Source: Streptomyces rishiriensis (lineage in GTDB: Bacteria > Actinomycetota > Actinomycetes > Streptomycetales > Streptomycetaceae). From it: a DNA stretch of 64,000 nucleotides. Below the pieces are notes generated by a model. That model saw nothing but the letters and a program-made list of their open reading frames with translations. It was not told where the DNA came from and did not search any database. Positions 7,134 through 11,636 of the stretch are shown here, piece after piece. Location of the stretch: contig NZ_JAUSWV010000002.1 of assembly GCF_030815485.1 (NCBI RefSeq), positions 3,844,001 to 3,908,000 of the forward strand. The letters are read 5' to 3'. Numbering within the stretch: position 1 is the first letter of the stretch; each line of letters starts with the position of its first letter. Position numbers and translations under genes: made by a program.

Positions 7134-7628
7134 ATGCTCAGGGTTTTCGCATACGACCGGCGATCGCCCCGACGACGTCCCGCGCCCGCCGCGACGGAGC
7201 TCAGCGCTTGGCGACGAACACGTGGGACGCGACGTCCGACTCCAGCTCGGCCGCCTCGCCGCCGCTGCCCACCAGGACACCGCCCGCCGACTCCGTCACG
7301 CTCACCACCGAACCGGGTTGCACGCCCGCGCGGCGCAGGGTGTACATCAGCTGCGCGTCCGTCTGGATCGGCTCGCCGATGCGGCGTACGACGACGGTCT
7401 TGCCCTCCAGGCCCGGGTCGAGGTCGGCCAGCGAGACCATGCCCTCGTGCAGGAACGGGTCGGCGCCGTCCTTCTCGCCCAGCTCCTCCAGGCCCGGGAT
7501 CGGGTTGCCGTACGGCGACTCGGTCGGGTGCCGCAGCAGCTCCAGCACGCGACGCTCGACGGCCTCGCTCATCACGTGCTCCCAGCGACAGGCCTCGGCG
7601 TGCACCTGCTCCCACTCCAGGCCGATGA
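7134..7628 (+). CDS. Antisense frame overlapping dmdR1/desR (possible adm counterpart)
   Basis: An ATG at 7134 is preceded by AGGAG 8 nt upstream, a better ribosome site than most genes here. It opens 164 codons running antiparallel through the 3' two-thirds of dmdR1/desR. The product is Arg/Pro/Ala-rich, as expected of any frame opposite a high-GC gene, so composition alone argues against it. In S. coelicolor the homologous regulator dmdR1 is reported to overlap an antiparallel expressed gene, adm, affecting siderophore and antibiotic production. I infer that this frame is the best candidate here, but cannot tell whether it is the same reading frame as adm. Confidence 0.35.
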   Translation: MLRVFAYDRRSPRRRPAPAATELSAWRRTRGTRRPTPARPPRRRCPPGHRPPTPSRSPPNRVARPRGAGCTSAARPSGSARRCGVRRRSCPPGPGRGRPARPCPRAGTGRRRPSRPAPPGPGSGCRTATRSGAAAAPARDARRPRSSRAPSDRPRRAPAPTPGR

Positions 7629-7893
7629 CGTCGACGAGGAGACACTCGGCGAGGCGGTGCTTGCGCATCACGCGCGTGGCCAGCCGGCGGCCCTCGTCGG
7701 TGAGCTCGAGGTGCCGGTCGCTGGCCACGGAGACCAGGCCGTCGCGCTCCATGCGCGCCACCGTCTGGCTGACCGTCGGCCCGCTCTGGTCGAGGCGTTC
7801 GGCGATCCGGGCTCGCATGGGCACTACGCCTTCCTCTTCCAGCTCGAGGATGGTGCGGAGATACATCTCCGTGGTGTCGATCAGTCCGGACAT
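7201..7893 (-). CDS. dmdR1: DtxR/IdeR-family iron-dependent repressor (DmdR1/DesR)
   Basis: 230 residues from ATG 7893, with GAGGGG 6 nt upstream. An extended frame to 7983 has no ribosome site. A winged helix-turn-helix (about 1-70) and a dimerisation domain (70-140) are followed by a C-terminal SH3-like domain (150-230). Every DtxR metal ligand is present at the classical positions: Met10, His79, Glu83, His98, Cys102, Glu105, His106. With Fe(II) the family binds iron boxes and represses siderophore genes. In S. coelicolor this gene is the main iron regulator, controlling desferrioxamine synthesis. I found no iron box in its own upstream region, which is shared with the divergent SIS gene. 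Confidence 0.93.
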   Translation of the reverse strand: MSGLIDTTEMYLRTILELEEEGVVPMRARIAERLDQSGPTVSQTVARMERDGLVSVASDRHLELTDEGRRLATRVMRKHRLAECLLVDVIGLEWEQVHAEACRWEHVMSEAVERRVLELLRHPTESPYGNPIPGLEELGEKDGADPFLHEGMVSLADLDPGLEGKTVVVRRIGEPIQTDAQLMYTLRRAGVQPGSVVSVTESAGGVLVGSGGEAAELESDVASHVFVAKR

Positions 7894-11056: not shown

Positions 11057-11085
11057 TTGAGCGACCGGGGACGGGTTCTTAGGGT
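11057..11085 (+). promoter_or_regulatory. Near-consensus HrdB-type promoter
   Basis: TTGAGC (11057-11062), a 17-bp spacer and TAGGGT (11080-11085) form one of the best promoter matches in the window. Transcription should start near 11092, just before a perfect Shine-Dalgarno and a 12-codon ORF. Confidence 0.6.
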
Positions 11086-11119
11086 GGGCCGTACCGAAGG
11101 AAAGGAGGTGGTCCGAAGC

Positions 11120-11158
11120 ATGTATGCACACCGGACGTCGGAGGTGGCTGCGGGCTAG
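11120..11158 (+). CDS. 12-codon ORF with a perfect Shine-Dalgarno in a structured leader
   Basis: The start ATG at 11120 follows AAAGGAGGTG, a full complement of the 16S 3' end, at 11101-11110. The peptide is MYAHRTSEVAAG. The surroundings fold in two exclusive ways: GTCCG (11111-11115) with CGGAC (11132-11136) encloses the start codon, while TGGTCCG (11109-11115) can instead pair with CGGACCA (11185-11191) and occlude the SD region. This could be a translated leader or a small regulatory RNA. It resembles no peptide I can name. Confidence 0.45.
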   Translation: MYAHRTSEVAAG

Positions 11159-11201
11159 GGCCCGTCGCCCACTGAGTGCGGTGCCGGACCAGCGTGTGTG
11201 A

Positions 11202-11213
11202 GTTGCACGCAAC
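11202..11213. promoter_or_regulatory. Palindrome GTTGCACGCAAC
   Basis: A perfect 5-bp inverted repeat with a 2-nt centre, similar in form to LacI-type operators. It could equally be a hairpin in the leader transcript. Confidence 0.3.
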
Positions 11214-11235
11214 CGGCCAATTCAACGCAGTCACC

Positions 11236-11298
11236 CGACCCGCGAGTCGCCGGTACGTCCGGCCGGCCCTCCTGAGCGAGGACCAGACTCGCGGGTCG
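11236..11298 (+). terminator. Long-stem hairpin ending the leader transcript
   Basis: CGACCCGCGAGTC (11236-11248) and its exact complement (11286-11298) form a 13-bp stem around a 37-nt GC-rich loop. It would close a ~200-nt transcript starting near 11092. A pyrimidine-rich tract (11300-11385) follows. Confidence 0.45.
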
Positions 11299-11432
11299 CC
11301 TGCTTCTCCGCCCTCGCTACTCCGCCCTCCGCCTTTCCGCCCTCCGCTTCCGGGCCCTCCGCCTTTCCGGCCCGCCGCCCGCAGGGTTTGCGGGGCGTGA
11401 TCCGCGCCACGTACGGATCTTTCGTCAGGCAG

Positions 11433-11444: not shown

Positions 11445-11519
11445 ATGCTTTCGCTCGTTCGACGCCGCCACGTGGACTACGTCCGCGTCACGAGCATGGG
11501 CTGTCGACGCTCCCTCTGA
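11445..11519 (+). CDS. Putative 24-residue leader peptide upstream of the oxygenase
   Basis: The peptide begins MLSLVRRRHVDYVRVTS and ends MGCRRSL. The pattern R-x-H-V-D-x-x-R-V-x-S with a Cys near the C-terminus resembles the actinobacterial short ORFs annotated as putative leader peptides before sulfur-metabolism operons, where translation of the Cys codon is thought to sense cysteine supply. Here the next gene, 117 nt downstream, is an Fe(II)-dependent oxygenase of the isopenicillin N synthase superfamily. A CGCCGC/GGCGGCGG hairpin in between could be the attenuator. Confidence 0.5.
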   Translation: MLSLVRRRHVDYVRVTSMGCRRSL

Positions 11520-11636
11520 GCCTTCCAGCCCTTCCCGCGGTCCCCAGCCGCCCGCGTCTCCCTCCCGCCCACTTGGCACCCGTGCGCCGCCCCACCCACG
11601 GCGGCGGCCGGGCCCCCGTACACCTGCGGACGAACC

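Follow-up and report, generated by a model that had tools for sequence, protein, structure and literature searches.

Ms_IGR-5 (RF02471) has been listed in Rfam for years as an sRNA, annotated as non-coding and actinobacterial. The homologue in M. smegmatis is ncMSMEG15794c, or IGR-5 (PMC10454040), the orthologue in Streptomyces lividans TK24 (SLIV_16488) has been validated by RNA-seq (PMC8079986) and, of the sRNA transcription units of S. avermitilis, two match Rfam, one of them being the Ms_IGR-5 orthologue (PMC8780764). Ribosome footprints have been reported on the M. abscessus and M. smegmatis homologues, with the caveat from the authors that most characterized E. coli ncRNAs were footprinted too (PMC4974804). 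We found no paper that assigns a function to Ms_IGR-5, and no name for an M. tuberculosis homologue. In dual-function sRNAs such as SgrS/SgrT, SR1/SR1P and VcdRP, the small protein has a function of its own.

Here we analysed a 64,000-nucleotide stretch of the S. rishiriensis genome (the window), for which an earlier note, made from the letters alone, had described a compact unit of about 200 nt that was unexplained by flanking genes and looked like an attenuator or a small regulatory RNA. The unit is the Ms_IGR-5 gene, already catalogued in Rfam as an sRNA, although no functional account of it was found: the full-length model (positions 1–184) matches with 81.7 bits and E = 1.6e-16 over the window (cmscan; curated cut-off, 45 bits). 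The gene is stand-alone and around 210 nt long, and the predicted fold of the segment has z = −3.24. Its parts are as follows.

11094–11304, + strand: Ms_IGR-5 sRNA (RF02471), whole family match (cmscan, full length).
11057–11085, + strand: promoter, with −35 TTGAGC (11057–11062), a 17-nt spacer and −10 TAGGGT (11080–11085) (sequence and positional conservation).
11099–11114, + strand: extended Shine–Dalgarno (SD) element GGAAAGGAGGTGGTCC, complementary to the terminal ~16 nt of 16S rRNA; the GTCC within it doubles as the 5′ strand of helix P1 (17 continuous pairs).
11120–11158, + strand: 12-codon ORF MYAHRTSEVAAG, from ATG to the stop TAG (start and stop conserved in frame).
11236–11298, + strand: terminator-like hairpin with a 13-bp stem (11236–11248/11286–11298) and no U-tract (sequence, fold and part of the Rfam model).

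The elements listed in the earlier note are all present at the positions given. TTG and TA...T of the promoter are kept at the right distances among actinobacterial homologues; a scan with a strict sigma-70 consensus did not detect a promoter at 11057–11085. The 13-bp-stem hairpin is present in both the fold and the Rfam model, and the transcript ends at around 11298–11304. The evidence for transcription comes from the orthologues of relatives, in the papers cited above. S. rishiriensis has a single copy of the gene, and of 61 Streptomyces genomes searched, 60 carry it; the counts above the cut-off were 248 of 395 genomes for the class and 26 of 296 for the phylum. Identity as a small regulatory RNA is supported by membership of a known Rfam sRNA family, by the orthologues that form their own transcription units in two Streptomyces species and by the promoter and terminator of the gene itself.

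To compare the elements across relatives, we used a set of at least 231 homologues, gathered by genome searches and by scanning some 85,000 genomes for a sequence pattern; 196 are distinct over the ORF region. The ribosome site that had been pointed out, AAAGGAGGTG, is present at 11101–11110. The SD is near-maximal: complementarity to the 3′ end of 16S rRNA around it runs to 17 continuous pairs in S. rishiriensis and to 15–19 in 218 of 231 homologues, counted with G–U pairs allowed and with one actinobacterial 16S 3′ sequence applied to all homologues. The 9.07-Mb genome contains seven copies of GAAAGGAGGTGRTCC: six are the 3′ ends of 16S genes, read backwards, and the seventh is the Ms_IGR-5 gene, the SD of which is thus the only site of such complementarity outside rRNA. 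The complementarity spans the RUCC on the SD side, so this short strand is common to 16S pairing and to P1.

The 12-codon ORF, also named in the earlier note, proved to be conserved as a reading frame. An ATG, GTG or TTG that lies 5–13 nt past GGAGGTG, in frame and open to a conserved GAG, is present in 190 of 196 distinct homologues; when the variable stretch was shuffled, in-frame starts averaged 23 (maximum, 40), and the other two frames gave 0 and 31. The stop falls exactly five codons past GAG in all 196 (TAG in 156, TGA in 23 and TAA in 17). Lengths range from 11 to 19 codons, always in whole codons (for example, MIDLWTCEVAAR, MKIDIREVTAT and MSYHSRSEVFDRTREVAAT). Six homologues depart from this: L076, L230, L240 and L241 carry ATT in place of the usual start, a rare start codon with a precedent in infC, and L022 and L024 have near-cognate starts only. 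In mycobacteria, nearly all copies start with TTG. Two Acidobacteriota copies (L209 and L212) have 19-codon ORFs with a second SEV-like motif (MSYHSRSEVFDRTREVAAT), as if an SD-like GAGGTG segment had been duplicated.

Synonymous fractions between close pairs, which are rough because such pairs are not independent, gave no sign of amino-acid constraint at codons 2–5 (0.26, compared with a neutral expectation of 0.20) or at codons 8–12 (0.30 versus 0.31). Codons 6–7 show a synonymous excess (0.48 versus 0.29), and some constraint on the peptide is not excluded there. These comparisons show an ORF that is kept open with a fixed start and stop, with amino acids at codons 2–5 that drift freely.

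Four short pairings connect the SD, the ORF, the strand before the terminator and the terminator loop.

11111–11136, + strand: P1, GTCCG (11111–11115) with CGGAC (11132–11136), start codon in the loop (60-sequence alignment).
11143–11235, + strand: P2a, GGTGGCTGC (11143–11151, codons 8–11) with GCAGTCACC (11227–11235, the pre-terminator motif) (covariation).
11153–11218, + strand: P2b, GGCT (11153–11156, last codon and stop) with GGCC (11215–11218), nested in P2a and followed by a conserved AATTC (register test).
11133–11260, + strand: PK, GGAC of the ORF (11133–11136) with GTCC in the terminator loop (11257–11260), which excludes P1 (covariation).

P2a and P2b had been overlooked in the earlier note. 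P2a, in general form GGUGRCUGC of the ORF with GCAGYCACC directly before the terminator, is paired in 98.7% of cells, with changes on both sides (34 distinct actinobacterial combinations). Compensated versions include GGUGGCUAC:GUAGCCACC in three homologues (L005, L072 and L073), GGUGGCUGG:CCAGCCACC in another (L026) and, in Acidobacteriota, GGUGCCUG:CAGG-C-CACC and GGUGGC(G)GC:GCCGGCCACC. P2b is paired in the right register in 92% of Zixibacteria copies, compared with 20–48% when slid, and in 61% of Actinomycetota copies, compared with 27–45%. These changes show a long-range P2a, with P2b nested within it, that is predicted to lock the last five codons and the stop against the pre-terminator motif. 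The E and V residues of the peptide are invariant and always encoded by GAG GTG, as the RNA structure (P2a) requires. The peptide is probably not the relevant product of the gene.

Mutually exclusive pairings had been proposed between GTCCG and CGGAC and between TGGTCCG and CGGACCA, and this was right in kind. The first is P1, for which the comparisons give moderate support: in the 60-sequence alignment, 84.3% of cells are paired, compared with 80.2% in shuffles, and 13 cells are changed on both sides, but its 4-bp core alone is not clearly above shuffles. The second is part of the minimum-free-energy fold of the S. rishiriensis sequence (partner within 11184–11192); however, across 192 actinobacterial homologues, helices of this type are not clearly longer than in shuffles, and we rejected it as a conserved alternative. 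By covariation, the conserved competitor of P1 is instead the RUCC in the terminator loop (11257–11260). An ORF with GGAC has GUCC in the loop in 156 of 156 cases, and an ORF with GGAU has AUCC in 22 of 26 and GUCC in the other four; in a control that took the first RTCC regardless of partner, seven cells were still changed on both sides. The GGAU type is seen in Streptomyces, Kitasatospora and Nocardioidaceae, a spread that suggests that it probably arose several times. The GGAY of the ORF can thus, as judged by these patterns, pair with the RUCC beside the SD (P1) or with that in the terminator loop (PK).

The family extends beyond Actinobacteria. Among the pattern matches listed, two Zixibacteria metagenome-assembled genomes (MAGs) are above the RF02471 cut-off (L116, 55.9 bits; L176, 47.0 bits), and two Blastocatellia/Pyrinomonadaceae MAGs have a weak Rfam match (L087) or none (L182). 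A model of the 5′ domain (R1), with these four sequences in its training set, matched 46 of 132 genomes from Zixibacteria and 32 of 297 from Acidobacteriota, once in each; in Bacteroidota, the negative control, 0 of 198 genomes had a match at E ≤ 1e-4. The copies from Zixibacteria and Acidobacteriota that were read have the same ORF, then the pre-terminator motif (AAAUCCCAACAGUUUACCG in Zixibacteria) and the terminator; no PK was seen in the Zixibacteria copies. Many of these genomes are MAGs. Misbinning of single contigs is conceivable but would hardly account for dozens of genomes whose sequences are specific to their group, and the ORF is kept open across three bacterial phyla. Five pattern matches on viral contigs lie inside other sequence and are due to chance, and a phage origin was rejected; a match in Tenacibaculum (L144) is also a chance match, with no model match in its genome.

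The arrangement of RUCC at the SD, GGAY in the ORF and RUCC in the loop, together with GGUGRCUGC and GCAGYCACC, suggests a fold that would depend on occupancy of the SD by the 16S 3′ end and on the passage of a ribosome over the 12 codons. Our main reading, to which we give a probability of roughly one half, is that Ms_IGR-5 is a stand-alone sRNA with a conformation set by ribosome engagement, through attachment of the 30S subunit and translation. Pairing of AAAGGAGGUGRUCC with the 16S 3′ end would remove the partner of P1 and make PK or initiation possible. Translation of the 12 codons would then melt P2a and P2b and free a conserved single strand, AAUyC...CAGUCACC, which resembles an anti-SD and could bind GGUGAC close to start sites elsewhere. 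As a guess at the output of the switch, the RNA may in this way signal the state of initiation or influence it, either through pairing with mRNAs or through retention of 30S subunits. More tentatively, Ms_IGR-5 might represent, in actinobacteria, an ancient class of stand-alone RNAs that spans several phyla and senses translation initiation. In such RNAs, the same short strands would be contested by the 16S 3′ end, the ORF and the terminator loop, and the transit of a ribosome over an unimportant peptide would free an anti-SD-like strand.

Other explanations account for parts of these observations. The long SD and mini-ORF could serve as a decoy that captures and retains small subunits, or else the 3′ end of 16S rRNA, and tunes the pool of free 30S, with the rest of the RNA providing stability. 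The extent of 16S complementarity in most homologues, far beyond a normal SD, its uniqueness outside rRNA and the ribosome protection of the mycobacterial homologue (PMC4974804) all fit, but a decoy would require very high RNA abundance and by itself leaves the covarying P2a, P2b and terminator-loop pairings and the exact position of the stop unexplained; we consider it rather unlikely. A classical trans-acting sRNA, seeded by the pre-terminator motif or the terminator loop and with the ORF as a stabilizing or timing device, would agree with the Rfam listing, the conserved single-strand motif AAUCC-CAG and the RUCC loop; we consider this unlikely, as the ORF is as well conserved as the structure, start and stop codons interchange, and each of the two candidate seeds covaries with an internal partner and is therefore constrained from within. 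That the gene is a tiny mRNA for an 11–19-residue peptide ending in E-V-(A/T)-A-x is quite improbable: the frame is open in almost all homologues and E-V is invariant, but the only invariant codons are the GAG GTG that P2a demands, synonymous fractions are near neutral on either side of codons 6–7 and the N-terminal half drifts freely.

The layout of ORF, alternative pairing and terminator-like hairpin also resembles a leader, which would make the locus a transcription attenuator for the 2OG-Fe(II) oxygenase-like gene downstream (11637). The surroundings contradict this. Flanking genes vary between genera, the downstream gene and its strand vary even among Streptomyces, and the oxygenase follows in few homologous loci, on either strand; no conserved regulated gene in the same transcript was found between genera or within Streptomyces. 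No pairing disrupts the terminator: P2a ends beside the terminator arm without overlap, and PK uses the loop only. The S. avermitilis orthologue is a separate sRNA unit (PMC8780764), and the oxygenase may own a separate leader peptide at 11446. Because the terminator closes the gene, neighbours differ and no helix overlaps the terminator arms, an attenuator is excluded for practical purposes; of the two identities offered in the earlier note, only the small RNA stands. The ORF upstream of the oxygenase gene (11446–11520, + strand; MLSLVRRRHVDYVRVTSMGCRRSL) has no NCBIfam match and resembles short actinobacterial leader peptides with R-HVD-RV-S--CRR. A DtxR-type iron-dependent repressor (7201–7893, − strand; NCBIfam NF053665, 381 bits) lies within 4 kb of the sRNA gene.

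With these features, Ms_IGR-5 makes it testable whether a free-standing RNA reads out the availability of ribosomes. The gene is present in mycobacteria, among them the pathogen M. abscessus. As a caution, translation of 'non-coding' sRNAs that show ribosome footprints may serve their structure and not a peptide.

Among known systems, the consensus of the Caulobacter sRNA CC2171 (RF01867) opens, close to the 5′ end, with GAAAGGAGGUGAUCC, the same sequence complementary to 16S rRNA. Its match to the window is below threshold (11092–11170; 16.9 bits against a cut-off of 75), it has no match in the S. rishiriensis genome and we found no paper on CC2171 as a relative; CC2171 is possibly an alphaproteobacterial counterpart of Ms_IGR-5. 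Dual-function sRNAs are likewise small RNAs with an ORF. For the putative translation of the ORF in Ms_IGR-5, comparative support is strong; however, this ORF belongs to the RNA structure itself, and its peptide shows no conservation at the amino-acid level. As in the leader-peptide attenuators of amino-acid operons, erm and whiB7-type uORFs, ribosome position on a short ORF would choose between exclusive pairings, but Ms_IGR-5 is stand-alone, has no regulated downstream gene and keeps its terminator outside the choice. The closest system is RF02471 itself (M. smegmatis IGR-5 and S. lividans SLIV_16488), which has the same order of promoter, SD, hairpins and terminator, and a consensus structure that leaves the 3′ partner of P2a unpaired and lacks PK. 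To this description, our comparisons add a conserved mini-ORF, the P2a helix, a covarying terminator-loop pairing and the presence in Zixibacteria and Acidobacteriota.
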